A stretch of DNA of 64,000 bases from Candidatus Nitronauta litoralis (lineage in GTDB: Bacteria; Nitrospinota; Nitrospinia; Nitrospinales; Nitrospinaceae): contig CP048685.1 in NCBI GenBank assembly GCA_015698285.1, positions 2,666,001 to 2,730,000 of the forward strand, written 5' to 3'. Positions within the stretch are counted from its first letter, which is position 1. The number at the start of each line of letters is the position of its first letter. The position numbers and the translations under genes are program-made. The notes beneath the pieces were generated by a model, which saw only the letters and a list, made by a program, of their open reading frames with translations, ran no database searches and had not been told where the DNA came from. Of this stretch, positions 6,658 to 18,457 are shown in pieces.

Positions 6658-7245
6658 GTGCGGTTAATATTTTTTGTGGCAGGAGTTTTAATGTATTCGG
6701 CCGCAGCTTTTGCCTTTCCATCCAGTGAATTCCATCTTCAAATTAATGTGAATCCGGTACAGAGGATTGAACTCAAGGTTGATGAGGTTTCCCGGGATAA
6801 AATTCTTGGGGCTATTTCGAAAAAAATTCCCTTGAAATGGACTCAGAATGCCCCCGGGTTGTCTGAGCCGGTCAGTTTAAACTTTAATGGATTGAATATT
6901 GTGGAGGCTCTTGAAAATATTTTAAGTCCTTTTTCTTATGTGCTGATTCAGAAAGAAACTAAGGAAGGAGCAGTTTGGGAAATTGATCTCCTGGGGCAAG
7001 GTCTGGGCGCGCAGGAGTTTCCATTGGTAAAACCTGAGGTTCTGGAGGCATTTAAAAGATGGGCGAGAGGTGCCCTCTCAGAAAAAAATTCGGGGTATCT
7101 CATGGAAGAACTGTTATTCAGTGGTGATGAAAAGGAGGTGTTCCAATTACTAAAGAAGGCGGCTTCTGCTAAGGATCTCAATGCTCGTCTGAAAGCAAAT
7201 GAGTTTTTAGAAGAATTTGAGGAAGACTGGCAGGCTTCCCTGTAA
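6658..7245 (+). CDS. Secreted small protein with STN-like region
   Basis: The GTG start at 6658 follows a perfect AGGAGG site. The 195-residue product has a signal peptide of about 20 residues ending AAAFA. Residues about 40-110 resemble the secretin/TonB N-terminal short domain (STN): a beta-alpha-beta pattern with VSLNFNGLNIVEALENILS and then SYVLIQKE, as seen in secretins and FecA-type receptors. Here no secretin or barrel domain follows. The C-terminal 85 residues are helical and charged. It may be a stand-alone periplasmic adaptor. The downstream neighbour is convergent, ending 22 bases away. It may be co-transcribed with the phytase-like gene. Confidence 0.65.
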   Translation: MRLIFFVAGVLMYSAAAFAFPSSEFHLQINVNPVQRIELKVDEVSRDKILGAISKKIPLKWTQNAPGLSEPVSLNFNGLNIVEALENILSPFSYVLIQKETKEGAVWEIDLLGQGLGAQEFPLVKPEVLEAFKRWARGALSEKNSGYLMEELLFSGDEKEVFQLLKKAASAKDLNARLKANEFLEEFEEDWQASL

Positions 7246-7267
7246 CCATAGATTTGAAAGAAAAAAA

Positions 7268-8263
7268 TTATAAAACCCGCCAGATTGTATTGACGAATTT
7301 ATTATTGGTTTCGAACAGGTTTTTCACGATTTCAAACCCATTGTCCTCAGCAAGTTGTTTGATTTCGTCCAAAGTGAATTTGTAGGATTGCTCAGTTTGC
7401 AGGCCCTCCCCCTGTTTAAAAAAGAATTCCTTGTCCAAAGCTTCAATTTTCACAGTCTGGTCTTTCAGGCTATAGACGTAGCTTTCTACTGACCGGGTAC
7501 GCCAGTTATAGTGTCCTTCCTGCGCAAAGTTTTCAATTTGGAAATTGCCTCCAAGCTCCTGATTGATTCTTTCGAGGAGATGCAGATTGAATTTCTCGAA
7601 TAGCCCTTGAGGGTCATTGTAAATCTGGTAATGAAGTTTTGGATTACTGAACAGATCAAAACCGGTCAGCATGAAGTCACCCCGGTTCAAAGTTTCTGAG
7701 ACACGTTTTAAAAAAATACCTGCTTCAGATAAATCCTGATTGCCAAGGGTCAACCCGAGGTAAAGAACCAGGCTGGTTTGTGCTTTGTTTTTGGAAAACT
7801 TCGTAAGGCCATCGAAATAATCTCCGATCACCCCGGTTACTTTAAGGGAAGGGTCCTTTTGATCAGCTTTCAGTCTGGAAACCAGGTTTTTTATAGCGCC
7901 AGGGGAAATGTCAATGGGAATATAGTGAAGCCGACGGTCTATATTTAATATATGTTCGATCAAAGGCAGGGTTTTTTCTCCATCCCCCGCGCCTAATTCA
8001 ATCAGTTGAAGAGGATTGGCTTCAACGATGTCGGTGATAATGTTTCTGTTTGTGTGAATTATGTTCTTTTCGCAGATAGCAGGATGATAGTTTTCAAGTT
8101 TTACTATTTCAGAAAATATTTCGCTTCCCTTGTCATCGAAAATCAACCATGAGGGCAGTTGTTTTTCTGGTTTGGACAAGCCCTCAAGAACAGTTGCTGC
8201 GAAAGAAATTTCATTGGTAGGTGAGTTTTTATCAAAACTTAAATCAATAATTTCAAAAGACAT
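7268..8263 (-). CDS. egtD: EgtD-like L-histidine N-alpha-methyltransferase
   Basis: SAM-dependent enzyme family that trimethylates the alpha-amino group of histidine to hercynine, the first step to ergothioneine. At 331 residues it has the normal length. The SAM loop is GAGDGEKT (91-98), followed by the acidic IDIS strand, GDYF (148-151) and YLGLTLGN (168-175). From memory of the mycobacterial enzyme, a constant offset of nine places the histidine-binding residues N166, Y206, E282 and S284 on N175, Y215, E291 and S293 here, all conserved. M252 aligns with S261. The usual partner EgtB (DinB/FGE-like sulfoxide synthase) is not in the window. The gene is divergent from a di-iron oxidase-like gene, 142 bases away. 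Confidence 0.85.
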   Translation of the reverse strand: MSFEIIDLSFDKNSPTNEISFAATVLEGLSKPEKQLPSWLIFDDKGSEIFSEIVKLENYHPAICEKNIIHTNRNIITDIVEANPLQLIELGAGDGEKTLPLIEHILNIDRRLHYIPIDISPGAIKNLVSRLKADQKDPSLKVTGVIGDYFDGLTKFSKNKAQTSLVLYLGLTLGNQDLSEAGIFLKRVSETLNRGDFMLTGFDLFSNPKLHYQIYNDPQGLFEKFNLHLLERINQELGGNFQIENFAQEGHYNWRTRSVESYVYSLKDQTVKIEALDKEFFFKQGEGLQTEQSYKFTLDEIKQLAEDNGFEIVKNLFETNNKFVNTIWRVL

Positions 8264-8405
8264 GACCCTCTTTAAGTTTAGGATTTAATGCTACTTGAAT
8301 TGACCTCGCCAGGAGCAGTTGTTATAGTAACTGTTAGTTTGAAAATTAAAATAGAAATCTTCATCCTCATTTTCCCCCCTAAAAATGGCTTTGAAATAGC
8401 TATTC

Positions 8406-9503
8406 ATGGGAAAAACATTTCCGGAAAAACTGACAATGTCTCAAGAGAACACCACAAGTGGTTCGGCAGAAGCAATAGATTTCAAGAAAACGGAAGAGCA
8501 GTTTGATTCTTTGCTGCGTTTTAAAAACCTCGATGAGCATCTGGATAAGGTGGGTTCGGTTCGAGAATCTTTTGAAGATGTGTTGGAGGTGGCAATTGCA
8601 GAAGCCTTTTGTGACGAAGGAGATGCGCAAGAGGCCAACCTGTTTCTTCACAGAATTTTATATCGAATAAATCGTCTCAAGCTCTTCTGGTATGACGACC
8701 TCAGTGAATACACGAATGAGACGTCTGTTTACATTTCTTCTGTCCGATCGAAGATCGAATCAGAGTGGCAGGAGTGGGAGTCAAAAAAGGTAGACTTTGA
8801 GTCTTTGAAACATCAGGAATTTGAAGCCACGGTACGTGAAAGGGTGGCCGAAGATCTTGCCACCAAACCAGATGAAACGGGAAAATATTTCAGGGATCAA
8901 ATGTCTCTTGAGGGATATCGTCATTTACTGGGGATCGCCTCTCTGGACGGACTGGTGGAGGCAAGTCAACTTTCCCGGGTTTTAGGGGGAGTCGGTAACA
9001 AGATTCAATCGATGCTCACCCGGATTTTACTGGAAGAATATGGTGGGGGAAGGTTAGCTAAAAAACATTCATCCTTTTTTTCTGCCATGCTGGTGGAACT
9101 AGGCATGAACTCTGAGCCGGAGGCATACAGGGACCTCGCGCCCTGGGAAGTGCTTGCTAATATCAACCATAGTTTTTTCCTTAGCGAAAGGAAACGAAAT
9201 TTTCTTCGCTATGTGGGAGCCTTGCTGTATACAGAAGTGTCTGTTCCTTCTGCTTTTGAAAACTACCTTGAAGCAGGGAAACGTTTGGGGCTGTCTGATC
9301 AGGCGATCGGTTATTGGGATTTACATATCAAAGAAGATCAGCGCCACGGTCAGTGGATGCTTGAAGACGTGGCTTTGCCGCTGGCAGATATTTATAAAGA
9401 AAACTCCTGGGAGATACTTTGGGGATATGATCAGCAACGGCTTTTCAGCAAACGAATCGGTGAAGCGATTGTCAGGTCAATAAGTGAAGCAGAATTGGCT
9501 TGA
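8406..9503 (+). CDS. Haem-oxygenase-like di-iron (iron-containing redox enzyme) protein
   Basis: A 365-residue all-helical protein. The C-terminal two thirds carry the ligand pattern of haem-oxygenase-like di-iron oxidases: EEYGGGRLAKKH (E210/E211 and H221), E277 in LLYTEVSVPSAFENYLE, and HIKEDQRH (H307, E310, H314). The GALLYTEVSVPSAFENY region is typical of the iron-containing redox enzyme family (PF14518 type). Family members activate O2 to oxidise or cleave amino-acid-derived and fatty-acid substrates. The first 165 residues are an additional helical region I do not recognise. A start at the second Met (residue 11, ATG 8436) is also plausible. It is divergent from the EgtD-like gene, which suggests a shared small-molecule pathway. 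A terminator follows. Confidence 0.75.
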   Translation: MGKTFPEKLTMSQENTTSGSAEAIDFKKTEEQFDSLLRFKNLDEHLDKVGSVRESFEDVLEVAIAEAFCDEGDAQEANLFLHRILYRINRLKLFWYDDLSEYTNETSVYISSVRSKIESEWQEWESKKVDFESLKHQEFEATVRERVAEDLATKPDETGKYFRDQMSLEGYRHLLGIASLDGLVEASQLSRVLGGVGNKIQSMLTRILLEEYGGGRLAKKHSSFFSAMLVELGMNSEPEAYRDLAPWEVLANINHSFFLSERKRNFLRYVGALLYTEVSVPSAFENYLEAGKRLGLSDQAIGYWDLHIKEDQRHGQWMLEDVALPLADIYKENSWEILWGYDQQRLFSKRIGEAIVRSISEAELA

Positions 9504-9562
9504 GAATATATCGGGTGCGATGCAGAAAAATTAATAGCAGTTTTTTTTGATAAATTTGATAT

Positions 9563-9596
9563 AAAAGGCCCATCCTTGCAGCAGGACGGGCCTTTT
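9563..9596. terminator. Bidirectional Rho-independent terminator
   Basis: Hairpin AAAAGGCCC (9563-9571) / GGGCCTTTT (9588-9596), extended inside by TCCT/AGGA after one mismatch, with a 6-base loop. A-rich and T-rich flanks let it serve both converging genes, the di-iron protein and the chemoreceptor. Confidence 0.88.
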
Positions 9597-9619
9597 AATA
9601 TTGATTTTTAACTATTACT

Positions 9620-11509
9620 TTAAACCACTCCCTTGTTATTCAGAAAACTTGTGTATTGCTGGTCCGTTCCCATGATGTGTTGCACCAGCCAGTCCTTCAG
9701 AAAAGTCATCATTCTCGTTCCGACTCCGGCTTCACCTGATTTGTAGCGGTTTGCCAGGTCTCCAACCTGACTGAGCAGCTCCTCGTGTTTTGCTTTATGA
9801 GCATCCCGGTCCGGGTAACTGTGATCGCCAAATAACCTTTCTTCATAGGCAAAGTGTTTTTGCGTGAAACTGACCAGTTCGTCAAGCGTTTGATGAATTG
9901 AGCCTTCAGTATGGCCCAGCATGATTCCACGATAAACATCGTTGATCAGGTTAATCAGTCTTTTATGGTGATTGTCAATTTCCTGTATGTTCACACTTAA
10001 GGCATCGTTCCAATCCATTAATGTCATTGATTCGCTTTTAAAAGTGAACTTGCCCACTACCTGTTCAAGTATATGGGAGATTTCTGTTAAATCTTCCGCC
10101 GCTTTGTGAATGTTGATAGAGCCTCCTGAGGTTTCCTGAGCCGCTTGGGAAACTCCCTTGATATTTTCAGAAATTTCTGCTGAAGAGCGGGCTGCTTCAG
10201 AAAGGCTTCTCGACATTTCATTGGTAGTAGCGGTTTGCTCTTCGACTGCACTGGCGATTGTGGAAGAGATGTCGTTAATATTCCCAATGATAGTTCCGAT
10301 TTCTTCTATAGCCTGCGTAGCCTCTCGCGTATTGATCTGGATCTCCTCAATGGTCCCTCCGATATCACCGGTTGCCTGTGAAGTTTGATTTGCCAATTCT
10401 TTGACTTCGTTCGCGACAACCGCAAAACCCTTTCCAGACTCCCCGGCCCGGGCTGCCTCAATTGTTGCATTCAACGCAAGCAAATTGGTTTGCTCTGCAA
10501 TTGAATTAATCACTTTAATGACTTGCCCGATTTTTTCGCTGCTGGCCTCAAGTCGGGATACTTTCTGATTGGTTTCGTCAGCCTTTGACACAGCATCGAG
10601 TGTGACCTGCGCTGCCTGTGTGGAGTTTACTGCGATTTCCTTGATACTGACGGCCATTTCTTCTGCCCCTGCAGCAACACTTGAAACACTTTGATTGACA
10701 AGTTCTGTTGCCTTGGAAACCACTTCCACCTGGGCGGAGGTCTCTTCTGCACTTGCGGTTAACTGCATGCTGACTTCTTTCAATAATCCCCCGGCTTCAG
10801 TAATGTTTCCCGAATTGAACCCAATCGCAGAGATTTGTGTTCGAAGGTCCACGAGAAACCTGGAGAGTTTTTCTCCAACCTGTCCCGCAGCGTCTTTGCC
10901 AACAACACTGCACTGTTTCGTGAGGTCTCCTTCTGCGGCTGCGTTAAGAACTTCAAGGATTTGATCAACTTTTTCCTGGAGTTCTTTTGTCCTCATTTGT
11001 TCATTGGTCCGCAATTCTTCGGCTTCTTTTTCAAGCGCCAGCTGTTTTGAAACCTCTTCCCAATTGACGATATAACCAAGTACCGTTTTGTTCGTGGCCG
11101 ATATTGCATTGATCTGGGTTTTTAAAGAAACGTTTCCAAAGGTGAAGGTTGCGCAATGTGGAAGATTTGCCGGATTTTCTAAAATCGCTTCTACTCTTTT
11201 AGGATCCTTGTGAAAGCGATGGATGGATCCCCCCAGGAGATTGTCGATTTGAACACCAAAATTTTCAAAAACCTCCTTTTCAATTACTCGGCAGGTTTTT
11301 TCTGCTTTAGTGTTCATGTAGACCAGCGTCAGGTTCTTATCTGCAATGAAAACATTTGTGTCCAGGTTGTCGAGGCAGGCTTTAAGCCCTGAAATAGAAC
11401 CCATGAGCTTTCCATTCCCATTTCCGAAAAAACGTCGGGTCCATCCGGTTTTGTCAACAGGCTTGTTTAGGGACAAGGCCGACCCTCTTGGCTCAAAAGT
11501 GGTTTTCAT
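9620..11509 (-). CDS. Soluble PAS chemoreceptor with C-terminal hemerythrin domain
   Basis: A 629-residue methyl-accepting chemotaxis protein without membrane helices, so cytoplasmic. A PAS-like domain occupies about residues 40-160 ([15 protein letters not shown] near its start), followed by a HAMP-like stretch and a long coiled-coil signalling domain. The conserved hairpin tip is [19 protein letters not shown], followed by [13 protein letters not shown]. Residues 498-629 form a bacteriohemerythrin with a full set of di-iron ligands: H514 or H515, H552, E556, H571, H575, H611 and D616. Hemerythrins bind O2 or NO reversibly, so this is probably an oxygen or redox sensor for taxis. The ribosome-binding site is GGAAGGAG. 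No che genes lie nearby. Confidence 0.93.
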
Positions 11510-13564: not shown

Positions 13565-16500
13565 ATGAGGAAGGTGCCAAGCTATTTGGTCGTTATGTTG
13601 GCTCTGGCTTTGATCTTCCCTGTGGCAACTGTTTGGGGTAATCCTCATCAGGGTCATGGGAAGGGACAAGGTTCAGTGGATCGACCCATCTGGTTGGAAA
13701 AGCTGGAAAACCAGGTGCAGTACGAAGAAATGATGGAAGGAAGGGTGGGCGATCAGAAACGTCTGGACAAGACATTCATGTCCTTGATGGATCGCCTGAA
13801 GGGGAAGTTAAAGGAACATGCTTCGCCTGCGTCATCCGGCGGTGGTTTTCATGATTCCTGGGCGGCCCATCAGTTGCAAAACGGTTATCTGTTGGGACCG
13901 ACAGCGGAAGCAGCCAGTGAAGTTCGTCAGGGCGGGCATTGCCCGGCGGGCGTTCCTACCAGGGAATATGACATCACTGCCATCAACGTGGAAATCACGT
14001 TGAATCAGTGGGGGGATTATTTTCCCGGTTACATGTTTGCCTTGACCAAGGATATCCCTAAAATTCGCGCGGAAGAAGAAAAGAACGCTGCGGCTCGAGA
14101 GGATGAATTGGATCCGGGTGCTGTGTCCACTGGTTTGCAGGGCGATGCGATTTCTCCGATGACCATTCGTGGGAATCAGGGGGAATGTGTTCGCTTCAAG
14201 GTCACCAATCAAGTTGAAGATGAATCGGTGGGTTTTCAGGTCAATGGCTCTGCCATGATCATCAGTGACTCCGGTCAGCCCAATACGGCGGCCACACCGG
14301 GTGCGATCATCCCGGCTGGTGAAACCCAGAACTTCGAATGGTACATTCCGGTTGACGAGCAGGAAGGCAGTCATTTGATTCAGAGTCATGGTGGACGCGA
14401 TCCTTCTTCTCTGGGTCTGATCGGTGCTTTCATTGTTGAGCCGCGCGGTTCTGAATACCTCGACCCGTGGACCGGAGAGCCGCTCGAAAATGGCTGGATG
14501 GCGATGATCTCTCACAAGGACACCAAGGACTTTCGTGAGTTCGCGCTGTTCTATCATGAAGTTGGCGACGAATCCTTTCGCCCGCTCAACCGCCATGGAG
14601 AGATGATTCCGCAGCGCGATCCGCAGACCGACGCTTACCGTCCTTCTGCCCGCGCAATGAACTATCGCTCTGAGCCTTTCGGGATCAATAATCTGGCGGT
14701 TCAGGAGAAGATGTTTCATTATGAAGATGAATCACTGGCCTACAGTTCGTACACTTTTGCAGACGTTCCCACGACCGTTCCAAGGTCTTACATGGGGGAT
14801 CCTGTAAAGTTCCGCCTGATCCATGGTGGCGGTGAAGTGTTCCATTCGCATCATCCACACGGCGGTACGATTCGTTGGACCCGTTCTCCAAAGCGGGAGC
14901 CAGGCATCGAAAACCTGTTGACTGCTGCTTACGACGGTCCTGTTAAATACCCTGTTGTTCGCACCACAACTGACCGCGTTGACGTGGAAGTTATTGGGCC
15001 TTCTGAAGCCATTGATCTGGAAACCGAGTGTGGTTCCGGTCTTTGTCAGAAGCTGGCAGGGGACTTTCTGTTCCATTGTCACGTAGCGCATCACTATGTT
15101 GCGGGTATGTGGGGTTACTGGCGTGTGTACAACACACTGCAGTATGGTAACTATCCGAAAGGCAGTACTGACGTTATGCGTCCCCTGGTTGAGCTTCCAG
15201 ATCGCAAAGGATACATCCCAAAAGGTGTGCACTCCGATACTCTGGTTGGCAAAACCATGAACTGGTACGGTAAGAAGTTCAAACTGGTTGGCAGTGGAGA
15301 CAGCAAGTGGGACCAGGATGTTCCAGTTGTAAACATCCACGACTGGGTCAAACAGATGCTGCCGCCCCAGGGCAAGCCCGGACACACCGACGATGAAAAA
15401 GGCCAGATTCTGGCTTACGACGGGACCGTCTGGGATTACGCCTGGAATGGCAACAAGGCCATGTCTGAGCGTGAAGCGACTTATGCAATGGCGAAGTACA
15501 AATCGCCAATGCCTGGCAAGCGCTTCCCGCTTCAGTTCCATCCGACCAACGGGAAACTGGCGTGGCCTCACATGACACCGCATTTTGGCAAGCGCGTTCC
15601 GTTTGCGCGGCATCATGGTGGAGCTCCCTGGCTTGAGCCTTTTCATAACCTTCGGGACAACAAAATCATTTCCAAGACAGAATCCGGAAGTGGTCGTTCT
15701 GATGCGTCAATGGAAAGCAGCGCACCCGCGAAACCGGGTGAGCAGGGTCGTTGGAGCTTGTGCCCGGAAGGTGCAGGCCGTAAGCAGTACAACCTGCACT
15801 TCATCAACACTCCGATTGAACTTTCCGGGGCGTATGGTGACACCAAGCCGATCATTGATAAGTACGGCTTGATCTATGTCATCGATGAAGACATGGCTGA
15901 AGTAAAAGCTGATCCGAAGAAAGCGATCCCACTGGTAATTCGCGCTAACGTTTATGACTGCGTTGATGTGCTTCTCTCCAGTGAATGGAACGATGATGAC
16001 TTCACAAACTTCCAGATGTCGAAGATCAACATCCATCCGCATTTCTTCCAGTTCGACAATCAGGCGTCTGATGGCGTTATCTCTGGTTTCTCTTACGACC
16101 AGTCAATGCGTTCCTATCGCCAGTTTGAAAAGAAACAAAAAGATGGCCACCATGTGGGCATGCCGGTACCGATGAATGCCAAGGTTCTGGAGGACACCAA
16201 ACCGGGTGACAAAACGGTAAAGGTTGAGTTGGCGCACCATGCCACCATGTTCCACGAAGGTGCTGACATTATCGTGGGCATTGAAGTTCCCAACGGTAAG
16301 GATGCACGGTGGATTGAAAAGATTGAACCCAAGCCCAACACGGCAAAGGACTACAAGTACACGATCACCTTCACTGAAGGCATGACTCATCCTCATAAGA
16401 AGGGTCAGATCGTTACTGCGGAATACGTCCGGTACCGCTGGTGGGTGGATGCCGATCTCGGTCTGGTGTTCTGGCACGATCACGCTTTTGGTGCCACGAC

Positions 16501-18457
16501 CTGGCCGCACGGCGGTATCGGGTCCACGATCGTAGAGCCCTGGGGGTCTACGTATCACGATCCAGCCACAGGCGAAGAAATTCGCAGCGGCCCCGTAGCC
16601 GATATCCATGGTACGGAGCCAATCGCCTATGGGCGGAACGGCAGCTTCCGTGAACTGGTTGTCCAGCTTCACGATACAGTGCCTCACACCGCCCAGTTAG
16701 TGACTGAAGGGAACCCTCCTGGGATGTCGCGTGAGAACGCGATTGCGGCGGGACAATCAATTTCCTTTCAGATGCCAACTGATATGCTGGAAGTGGCGTT
16801 TCCATACCTTAATGGTGGGACGCATACTTCCGGTGGCGGTTTTAACTTCCGTGCGGCGTCTCTAACTTCGCGTTTGAAAGCGAATTCAGATCCGTCCATG
16901 ATTTTCAGCAGTAAGGCTCACCGCGATCCTGATACACCAATGCTTCGGGCGTACCTGGGTGACAACGTGGTGTTCCGCATTCTGCACGGCATGATGAACG
17001 AAACCCATACCTTCAATGTTTCCGGCCATGGGTTTCGTCCTGAGCGCTACGATCCTGATTCTCGTGTGGTCAACACCATTCACATCGGGATTGCAGAACG
17101 TTATGACCTGGCTACAACAGCGGGTGGTTATCAGCAGATGCCGGGCGACTACCTGATTTTTGATGGTCGCTCTTCCCATCTGTCGGAAGGTTCCTGGTCC
17201 ATCATGCGGGTTTTTGACAAGCCGCAGAAAGACCTGAAGCCTCTTGAAGGCACTCGCGGTATTCTCAAGGCAAAAACTTCGCCTTGTGAAAAGGGTGCTC
17301 CGGTCAAGAATTTCAGTGTGGTCGCTATCGACAAGGCGCTCAAGTTCAACCCGAACACGGAAGACGTGATCGAAGTTGACTTTGAGCGGAAGCTGATTCT
17401 GGCCAATCCGAACGGCAAAATCTTTGCTCTCGAAAGTGAAGTGAAGAAAGTTGCTTCCAGTGAGGTTCAGCCTCACCCACTGACCCTGCATGTCAATGTA
17501 GGCGATTGTGTGAAGGTGAAACTGACCAATCGGATGAAAGAGGGGAAATCTTCCCTGCACGTTCAGAACATGGCGTTCGATCCAAAGGACAGCCAGGGCA
17601 TTAACGTCGGGAACAACCCGGGCGACCAGACGGTAGCACCGGGCAAGTCCAAAACCTACACCTTCTATGCACATCCGGATTACTATCTGAATGGCGCATT
17701 GGTTTGGGACTTTGGCAACCTGATGAATGTCCGTCACGGTTTGTTCGGCGGTATCATCATCGGCCCACGGGGTTCTGTCTATCGTGATCCGGAAACGGGT
17801 AAAGACATCACGATGGGCAATTCCTGGAAAGCCGACGTCATTGTCGACAAGTCCTATCCTGAAAACAAGGATATCGAGAACTACCGTTCTTTCTCCCTGT
17901 ACTTCCAGGACGAGGACAACATCCTTGGAACGTCCTTCATGCCTTACCTGCAGAACGTTGCAGGTCTGACAGGTGTGAATTACCGGCTGGAGCCGTGGGT
18001 GTACCGCGAAGACGAAGGTTGTGAGCTGGGTAACATCTTCACACCTTGTGTCGCAGCGGACAGCATGCCGGCTACTCCGACCTTGAAAGCCCATGCGGGC
18101 GACAAGGTGATGATCAACGTCTTTGGTGCTCATAACGAGCAAAACCAGATGTTCAATCTGGACGGTCACCAATGGCGGCGCCACATTAAACAGAACGGTT
18201 CGGATATGATCGACGTCGAAGAATTTGGCGCCGGTGAATACATCCAGGCCTTCCTGTTGAACGGTGCCGGCGGTACGTATCATGTACCGGGGACCTACCT
18301 CTGGTTGAACGCCCGCACGCCTTACCAGCAGGCAGGGCAGTGGGGGTATTTCAAGGTTCTGCCGAAGGGCGACCGGTCAATTCTGCCTCTGGGTGGCGCG
18401 ACTCCTTCCGGGAAGTCCGCTCAGTTGCCGAGTGATGATCAGTTGTCTATGAAGTAG
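13565..18457 (+). CDS. Giant secreted multicopper oxidase, six-cupredoxin type
   Basis: A 1630-residue protein with a signal peptide (to about residue 26) and a strong AGGAGGGAG site. Three related units are visible, each with an N-type cupredoxin part ending in a shared pattern (IVEP-x-G-S-x-Y-x-DP-x-TGE at about 290, 990 and 1400) and a C-type part. Only one full copper set exists: H427-x-x-H430-x-H432 and H504-C505-H506-x3-H510-x4-M515 (type 1 plus half of the trinuclear site) in unit 1, then HPH 824-826 and HDH 971-973 in unit 2. Ordinary multicopper oxidases have the HxH pairs first. Unit 3 and the other halves are degenerate. Very large secreted oxidases include MofA/MnxG-type putative Mn(II) oxidases, so metal oxidation in the periplasm or outside is plausible. 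The substrate is unproven. A terminator follows. Confidence 0.88.
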   Translation: MRKVPSYLVVMLALALIFPVATVWGNPHQGHGKGQGSVDRPIWLEKLENQVQYEEMMEGRVGDQKRLDKTFMSLMDRLKGKLKEHASPASSGGGFHDSWAAHQLQNGYLLGPTAEAASEVRQGGHCPAGVPTREYDITAINVEITLNQWGDYFPGYMFALTKDIPKIRAEEEKNAAAREDELDPGAVSTGLQGDAISPMTIRGNQGECVRFKVTNQVEDESVGFQVNGSAMIISDSGQPNTAATPGAIIPAGETQNFEWYIPVDEQEGSHLIQSHGGRDPSSLGLIGAFIVEPRGSEYLDPWTGEPLENGWMAMISHKDTKDFREFALFYHEVGDESFRPLNRHGEMIPQRDPQTDAYRPSARAMNYRSEPFGINNLAVQEKMFHYEDESLAYSSYTFADVPTTVPRSYMGDPVKFRLIHGGGEVFHSHHPHGGTIRWTRSPKREPGIENLLTAAYDGPVKYPVVRTTTDRVDVEVIGPSEAIDLETECGSGLCQKLAGDFLFHCHVAHHYVAGMWGYWRVYNTLQYGNYPKGSTDVMRPLVELPDRKGYIPKGVHSDTLVGKTMNWYGKKFKLVGSGDSKWDQDVPVVNIHDWVKQMLPPQGKPGHTDDEKGQILAYDGTVWDYAWNGNKAMSEREATYAMAKYKSPMPGKRFPLQFHPTNGKLAWPHMTPHFGKRVPFARHHGGAPWLEPFHNLRDNKIISKTESGSGRSDASMESSAPAKPGEQGRWSLCPEGAGRKQYNLHFINTPIELSGAYGDTKPIIDKYGLIYVIDEDMAEVKADPKKAIPLVIRANVYDCVDVLLSSEWNDDDFTNFQMSKINIHPHFFQFDNQASDGVISGFSYDQSMRSYRQFEKKQKDGHHVGMPVPMNAKVLEDTKPGDKTVKVELAHHATMFHEGADIIVGIEVPNGKDARWIEKIEPKPNTAKDYKYTITFTEGMTHPHKKGQIVTAEYVRYRWWVDADLGLVFWHDHAFGATTWPHGGIGSTIVEPWGSTYHDPATGEEIRSGPVADIHGTEPIAYGRNGSFRELVVQLHDTVPHTAQLVTEGNPPGMSRENAIAAGQSISFQMPTDMLEVAFPYLNGGTHTSGGGFNFRAASLTSRLKANSDPSMIFSSKAHRDPDTPMLRAYLGDNVVFRILHGMMNETHTFNVSGHGFRPERYDPDSRVVNTIHIGIAERYDLATTAGGYQQMPGDYLIFDGRSSHLSEGSWSIMRVFDKPQKDLKPLEGTRGILKAKTSPCEKGAPVKNFSVVAIDKALKFNPNTEDVIEVDFERKLILANPNGKIFALESEVKKVASSEVQPHPLTLHVNVGDCVKVKLTNRMKEGKSSLHVQNMAFDPKDSQGINVGNNPGDQTVAPGKSKTYTFYAHPDYYLNGALVWDFGNLMNVRHGLFGGIIIGPRGSVYRDPETGKDITMGNSWKADVIVDKSYPENKDIENYRSFSLYFQDEDNILGTSFMPYLQNVAGLTGVNYRLEPWVYREDEGCELGNIFTPCVAADSMPATPTLKAHAGDKVMINVFGAHNEQNQMFNLDGHQWRRHIKQNGSDMIDVEEFGAGEYIQAFLLNGAGGTYHVPGTYLWLNARTPYQQAGQWGYFKVLPKGDRSILPLGGATPSGKSAQLPSDDQLSMK

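Follow-up and report, generated by a model that had tools for sequence, protein, structure and literature searches.

What pathway is encoded when the gene for an EgtD-like methyltransferase stands head-to-head with that for a haem-oxygenase-like dimetal protein (HDO), in a bacterium without EgtB? This pair lies in a 64,000-nucleotide stretch (the window) of Candidatus Nitronauta litoralis (contig CP048685.1, positions 2,666,001 to 2,730,000), whose genome of 3.92 Mb in one contig is G000 in our set (G, genome; L, locus). The methyltransferase gene (331 amino acids; 7268..8263, minus strand) and the HDO gene (365 amino acids; 8406..9503, plus strand) are divergent, and the coordinates of their open reading frames leave 142 bp between them (8264..8405, no strand). 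The methyltransferase is assigned to an HDO-linked EgtD-like subfamily dependent on S-adenosylmethionine (SAM) by its PF10017 profile, its nearest solved chain and an AlphaFold2 model, and the HDO to a putative N-oxygenase type by its PF14518 profile, PDB matches and an AlphaFold2 model. An earlier interpretation made from the letters alone, the sequence-only reading, had described the locus as an EgtD-like methyltransferase divergent from an HDO, and both profiles and the 142 bp spacing bear this out.

We consider, with a probability of about 0.5, that the two proteins are an N-oxygenase and an alpha-N-methyltransferase that act on an amino-acid-like metabolite in one pathway. The methyltransferase and the HDO would be two steps of a single small-molecule route. 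With O2 and its dimetal centre, the HDO would oxidise a nitrogen of an amino-acid-like metabolite to the N-hydroxy level or beyond, and the EgtD-like enzyme would carry out SAM-dependent methylation of the alpha-amino group, either on the HDO metabolite or on its precursor. Free histidine on its way to ergothioneine is an unlikely substrate.

A gene pair kept in two phyla

A full-length HDO is encoded in 41 of 77 Nitrospinota genomes; one more holds a C-terminal fragment and two give weak matches only. PF10017 matches above cut-off occur in 35 of the 77 genomes, and by coordinates 34 of these 35 genes are head-to-head with the HDO gene, which gives the pair in 34 of the 41 genomes with a full-length HDO. 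The 35th gene (G020) sits at the start of a contig. Strong HDO matches are present in 14 of 395 Nitrospirota genomes, a sample that is a subset of the larger group; nine of them have a divergent adjoining methyltransferase, four lack any PF10017 gene and one locus is cut. The sequence-only reading had named conservation of the pair in related genomes as a check, and these counts support such conservation.

The methyltransferase also adjoins the HDO in 38 of 45 collected loci, the window counted. This collection overlaps in genomes with the 77-genome set and may contain near copies of its members, so the two counts are not additive. Among the other seven, two loci (L080 and L081) start inside the HDO gene, two (L053 and L061) extend less than 0.8 kb upstream of the HDO with no methyltransferase within that stretch, and three (L060, L062 and L064) have enough room beside the HDO yet carry no methyltransferase. 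The related loci were found with exact peptide patterns, and we do not claim that the pair is confined to the two phyla.

The genes flanking the pair vary among lineages. Pairwise distances of the methyltransferases and of the HDOs are correlated (r = 0.949, n = 50 pairs; none of 1000 permutations reached this value), a figure that retains shared ancestry and is raised by it. Because the pairing persists while the flanks differ, and because the distances of the two proteins track each other, the methyltransferase and HDO genes form a conserved unit across two phyla. The two genes might instead merely travel together, through a shared regulatory region or joint transfer, and serve separate pathways. 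The persistence of the HDO in genomes without the methyltransferase fits such co-travel, but 34 of 35 Nitrospinota methyltransferase genes adjoin an HDO despite rearranged flanks, and the two families co-vary, although joint inheritance alone would give the same correlation; we see only a very small chance that co-travel is the whole explanation. In the promoter scan, a sigma-70-like site at 8300-8328 points towards the HDO gene. Five such sites were found in 7200-9640 against a mean of 4.2 in shuffles, which is no excess, and the scan of the intergenic region found no repeats or promoters beyond chance level.

HDO matches occur in 26 plasmid records, with 35% identity at best. In the seven of these neighbourhoods that were inspected, no annotated EgtD-like gene lies within 6 kb, and in two of the seven the HDO is followed by a Rieske protein. 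One further pair (L040, JAPUKJ010000289.1) lies on a contig of 3.1 kb from an Ignavibacteria bin. It groups within Nitrospirota in both the HDO and the methyltransferase trees, and the contig is therefore probably mis-binned.

The HDO and its N-oxygenase relatives

The window HDO matches PF14518 (Haem_oxygenas_2) over residues 176-340 with an E-value of 2.4e-31 (109.3 bits against a cut-off of 28.9). Searched alone against the PDB, it retrieves SznF (3.8e-12), RohS (2.3e-11) and HrmI (4.2e-7), with BesC far weaker (0.21). A profile built from 32 HDOs returns the same three proteins (SznF, 8e-15; RohS, 2.6e-14; HrmI, 1.1e-7) as its only matches at E up to 0.1. The AlphaFold2 model (predicted local distance difference test score, pLDDT, 82.5) can be superimposed on HrmI with a Z score of 31.0 over 329 residues, with model residues 24-361 matching HrmI residues 6-342, followed by SznF (Z 26.0), RohS (25.1) and FlcD (21.9). 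CADD, BesC, UndA, PolF and AetD score lower (Z 17 to 13) in alignments that leave out the N-terminal domain; CADD, BesC, UndA and AetD align from about HDO residue 135 onward. By sequence and model, the window HDO falls with the N-oxygenases SznF, RohS and HrmI, its closest relatives among solved HDOs. Only about a dozen HDOs with a known reaction are counted in the excerpts of PMC13108848, so that this closeness is a ranking and not a proof.

The protein is composed of an N-terminal helical domain (about residues 24-137; 8475..8816, plus strand), delimited by structural alignment with HrmI, and a haem-oxygenase-like dimetal domain (about residues 138-365; 8817..9500, plus strand), placed by the PF14518 match and the fold alignments. 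The sequence-only reading had remarked on an extra N-terminal region of about 165 residues. The region is real but not peculiar to this protein, since the model comparison finds the N-terminal helical region in HrmI, SznF and FlcD as well.

Alignment with SznF places the predicted metal ligands, all on the plus strand. Glu211 (9036..9038) is aligned with the DEYG motif of SznF, His221 (9066..9068) with its KHS motif, Glu277 (9234..9236) with its YTES motif, and His307-x3-Asp311-x2-His314 (9324..9347) with its H-x3-D-x2-H motif. The six core ligands of the HDO superfamily (three histidines and three carboxylates in the pattern E/H/E/H-x3-D-x2-H) are thereby all predicted to be present, and Glu185 (8958..8960), lying opposite SznF Glu189, is the predicted seventh. 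Each of the seven residues is identical in 45 of 45 HDO homologues, 32 of which form the rows of our HDO alignment (A1). Of the ligands named in the sequence-only reading, Glu211, His221, Glu277, His307 and His314 stand; Glu185 was missed, and Glu310 should read Asp311. Glu310 is also invariant, and was rejected as a metal ligand on the SznF alignment, which puts the motif aspartate at Asp311. We take this aspartate to be a metal ligand in SznF, and Glu189 (as we number it) to be its extra carboxylate.

The ligand set of the window HDO is, as judged from these alignments, one of three histidines and four carboxylates (3H/4C) with Glu185 as the extra carboxylate. An extra Glu ligand (3H/4C) is described for SznF in the excerpts of PMC13108848, where the 3H/4C set is attributed to about a quarter of HDOs and a 3H/3C set to HrmI. 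Because HrmI is itself an N-oxygenase, 3H/4C is suggestive only as an N-oxygenase mark. The hydroxylamine oxidase DnfA was considered as a model and rejected, as it is an AurF/CmlI-type protein and not an HDO according to the portion of PMC9478400 available to us.

Each of the three N-oxygenases resembles the window protein in a different manner. HrmI, the L-lysine N-oxygenase of the hormaomycin pathway, has the best-matching fold with the N-terminal helical domain included (19% identity; Foldseek E 2.2e-8). It differs in being 3H/3C (PMC13108848, excerpts), whereas the window HDO family has the extra Glu185, and in the window family only the methyltransferase is conserved alongside. RohS, the 2-aminoimidazole N-oxygenase of the azomycin pathway, combines its profile match of 2.6e-14 and Z of 25.1 with a Glu at the position of Glu185, but aligns only from about residue 74 of the HDO model. 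The substrate of RohS is not a methylated amino acid. SznF, the N-omega-methylarginine N-oxygenase of the streptozotocin pathway, is the best sequence match (3.8e-12) and shares the seven-ligand pattern. It carries a C-terminal cupin domain, whereas in the window protein nothing follows the HDO domain, the chain stopping 25 residues past the PF14518 match, and the profile scan found no cupin family in it. The SznF substrate is methylated by SznE, which to our knowledge is not EgtD-like. SznF offers a functional parallel, as an HDO N-oxygenase whose substrate is an amino acid that carries a methyl group (PMC13108848, excerpts).

The pathway could also be the same but with another oxidation, in which the HDO breaks carbon-carbon bonds in the methylated amino acid, desaturates it or rearranges it, in the manner of FlcD, BesC, AetD or PolF. 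HDOs with like ligands can catalyse different reactions (PMC13108848, excerpts), and FlcD ranks directly behind the N-oxygenases in fold similarity. However, the HDO profile retrieves no such enzyme from the PDB within an E-value of 0.1, and the alignments of BesC, UndA, AetD, CADD and PolF (Z 13 to 17) leave out the N-terminal domain, which makes these chemistries unlikely here. The sequence-only reading had stated that HDO enzymes oxidise or cleave amino-acid derivatives; the closest relatives of this HDO oxidise nitrogen and do not cleave carbon bonds.

The methyltransferase and the suggested hercynine route

The window methyltransferase matches PF10017 (Methyltransf_33) with an E-value of 5.3e-80 (269 bits against a cut-off of 23), and its model has a pLDDT of 89.4. 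Its nearest solved chains are EgtDs, L-histidine N-alpha-trimethyltransferases, at 31-36% identity, the best being Mycobacterium smegmatis EgtD (E 7.3e-36). It nevertheless scores 245.3 bits with the EgtD equivalog model TIGR03438, below the cut-off of 290.9, and four other HDO-linked methyltransferases also fall below (260.4 to 274.6 bits). TIGR03438 matches 26 of 26 members of the methyltransferase alignment (A2; 26 of 38 rows) with a best E-value of 4e-83, weaker than the cut-off implies, which suggests that these members too lie below it. On its sequence, 'EgtD-like' is the fitting name for the window methyltransferase, which the scores do not establish as EgtD itself.

To compare the substrate pockets, 50 linked methyltransferases were set against M. 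smegmatis EgtD, whose numbering is used, and five EgtDs adjoining egtB. Tyr56 is kept in 49 of 50 linked sequences, and Asn166, Tyr206 and Ser284 in 50 of 50 each. Thr213 is replaced by Phe in all 50, while it is Thr in five of five EgtDs adjoining egtB, and Tyr39 is replaced by Phe in 43 of 50. In EgtD, as described in the part of PMC8593015 available to us, Tyr56, Tyr206, Ser284 and Asn166 hold the amino-acid backbone, and Thr213 helps to hold a water bound to the imidazole nitrogen. Because the former four are retained but Thr213 is replaced by Phe, the linked methyltransferases appear to keep the backbone site with its alpha-amino and carboxylate contacts and to have changed the side-chain site. 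Met252 to Ser was considered as a sign of a new substrate and rejected, as Ser is also present in five of five EgtDs adjoining egtB. In a tree with 30 of 51 non-redundant linked sequences, in which long branches elsewhere are flagged, the linked methyltransferases form one separate clade on a long stem with 100/100 support. The window enzyme thus differs from EgtD in its score below the equivalog cut-off, its Phe for Thr213, its own clade and its partner, an HDO in place of EgtB.

The sequence-only reading had also held that egtB is absent, which is confirmed. No DinB_2 match is present in the window genome, and the EgtB model TIGR03440 finds nothing above cut-off in 77 Nitrospinota genomes. 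Of the 31 FGE-sulfatase matches in the window genome none passes the EgtB model, and those listed cover only its sulfatase-like part; its relatives in the same order carry 11 to 33 TIGR03440-related matches each. With no DinB_2 match and no FGE-sulfatase match that passes the EgtB model, EgtB is absent from the window genome. The accompanying premise that hercynine normally feeds EgtB was too narrow, because abstracts describe other routes from hercynine to ergothioneine, through EanA/EanB and through a metallopterin-dependent ergothioneine synthase.

Second PF10017 genes bear on hercynine as well. None above cut-off was seen in the 77 Nitrospinota genomes, while eight of the nine pair-bearing Nitrospirota have one (G077, G079, G080, G083, G272, G287, G331 and G389; not G082). 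All four second copies tested, from G077, G287, G080 and G272, pass the EgtD cut-off (331.7 to 338.3 bits). Thirty second-type loci, best matches only, were collected from genomes with and without the pair, and the gene was read in 29 of them; all 29 have Tyr39, and at position 213 there is Thr in 25 of them and Ser in the other four. Of the 30 loci, 21 adjoin a gene cluster in which the members tested are class V pyridoxal-phosphate (PLP) enzymes, and 13 adjoin one in which they are betaine-type ABC transporters. In the Nitrospirota second copies at L180, L186, L188, L194 and L195, a class V PLP/cysteine-desulfurase-like enzyme and a glycine-betaine-type ABC transporter often adjoin. The Nitrospirota second gene could belong to an ergothioneine route with its own transporter. 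Given this gene in eight of the nine, pair-bearing Nitrospirota probably have a hercynine capacity apart from the pair.

These results bear directly on the route suggested at the outset, in which the methyltransferase converts histidine to hercynine and the HDO oxidises or cleaves hercynine in place of EgtB. PF10017 membership with EgtD as the nearest solved chain, the retention of Glu282 and Ser284 in all 50 linked sequences, the absence of EgtB from the window genome and the lack of another PF10017 gene above cut-off in Nitrospinota genomes are all consistent with it. Against this stand the failed EgtD cut-off, the Phe found in place of Thr213 in every linked sequence and in place of Tyr39 in 43 of the 50, the separate clade on its long stem, and the coexisting second EgtD-type gene in eight of nine pair-bearing Nitrospirota. 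The methylated-histidine route is consequently not supported as proposed, and we regard it as distinctly unlikely.

A further reading assigns the pair to stress, with the HDO protecting against oxidative damage like Acinetobacter DtpC and the methyltransferase making an antioxidant or osmoprotective betaine. DtpC has an HDO fold and limits hydrogen peroxide in dried cells (PMC13232832, excerpts), and betaine-transporter genes adjoin the Nitrospirota second copies. Yet no stress gene is conserved beside the pair, and we give this reading little credence.

A candidate N-oxygenation pathway and its setting

For the reading of an N-oxygenase coupled to an alpha-N-methyltransferase, we infer both reactions, the order of the steps and an alpha-amino acid as the substrate class from the features above, and several points weigh against it. 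Seven of the 41 Nitrospinota HDO carriers (G007, G008, G023-G026 and G030) and four of the 14 in Nitrospirota (G220, G240, G333 and G371) lack PF10017 above cut-off. With these carriers in view, EgtD-like methylation is dispensable for the HDO. Glu282 is kept in 50 of 50 linked methyltransferases, so that the substrate may yet be histidine-like; this residue adds to histidine selectivity in EgtD. The window HDO shares only about 20% sequence identity with characterised N-oxygenases. Its closest fold, HrmI, is 3H/3C, so that the ligand count does not define N-oxygenases, and HDOs that share ligands can differ in reaction (both PMC13108848, excerpts).

The carriers without the methyltransferase suggest which step is central. 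In a tree of 63 HDOs, the absence of the methyltransferase needs four changes, and because G030 is nested within a methyltransferase-bearing group, its absence looks like a loss. G333 and G240, two related genomes of Nitrospirota that have no EgtD-like gene, encode immediately after the HDO a class I methyltransferase of 232-233 amino acids that is unrelated to the EgtD-like one (L148:7112-7813 and L149:5937-6635). In two Nitrospinota genomes without the methyltransferase (G023 and G025), a gene for a formyltransferase-like protein lies downstream of the HDO (L142:7797-8579 and L144:8098-8916), at 27 bp in one and about 0.8 kb in the other. Such single-gene adjacency in related genomes is a weak lead, by which the methylation may be replaceable and N-formylation would suit an N-hydroxy product. 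Because the HDO persists in several lineages without a linked methyltransferase and the reverse is almost never found, the HDO step is probably the core of the pathway and methylation a tailoring step.

A more specific form of the proposal is tentative and, taken whole, somewhat doubtful. The pathway of the two phyla would lead to an N-oxygenated, alpha-N-methylated (betaine-type) amino acid, for example a metal ligand, a nitric-oxide donor or a signal; it would employ an N-oxygenase of the HrmI/SznF type and a new subfamily of EgtD whose substrate is not histidine, and the unit would have moved between Nitrospinota and Nitrospirota. Few relatives of EgtD are known to act on anything but histidine.

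The neighbour of the pair in the window (9620-11509, minus strand), as in L039, encodes a methyl-accepting chemotaxis protein that carries a bacteriohemerythrin domain at its C-terminus and is likely an oxygen or iron sensor. Farther on (13565-18457, plus strand) lies a gene for a very large repeat-bearing protein of 1630 amino acids, whose repeats we take, from their motifs, to resemble multicopper oxidase domains.

The window genome carries a nitrite-oxidoreductase-type beta subunit, which we take to be NxrB. Two identical copies are present (G000:C1:1217753-1219027 and 3920347-3921621); the second ends 20 bp from the contig end, and either is genuine or reflects overlapping ends in the assembly. 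A search with the G000 protein finds NxrB, at E up to 1e-60, in 23 of the 77 Nitrospinota genomes and in 113 of the 395 from Nitrospirota. A strict link between the pair and nitrite oxidoreductase (NXR) was rejected as a claim, as strong HDO matches occur in only 14 of the 395 Nitrospirota genomes and NxrB was not found in several genomes that carry the pair. Since metagenome-assembled genomes often lose NXR genes that occur in several copies, the NxrB counts neither prove nor disprove a link.

Within open-licence PMC papers, searches combining EgtD or hercynine with HDO or N-oxygenase, or either with Nitrospina or Nitrospira, found no description of the pair. Nitrospina with ergothioneine gave nothing in the same papers, and EgtD with Nitrospira gave only a paper on ammonia-oxidising archaea. 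Both parts come from known superfamilies, and the pair as a pathway looks undescribed, in line with the novelty claimed for it from the sequence.

The compact two-gene unit, found in lineages that include marine nitrite oxidisers, represents a small and testable pathway. Its two residue markers, Phe in place of EgtD Thr213 and Glu185 of the HDO, help to distinguish genes of this kind from usual EgtD genes and from HDOs of other kinds. The pathway could reveal a metabolite of bacteria that are important to the nitrogen cycle.

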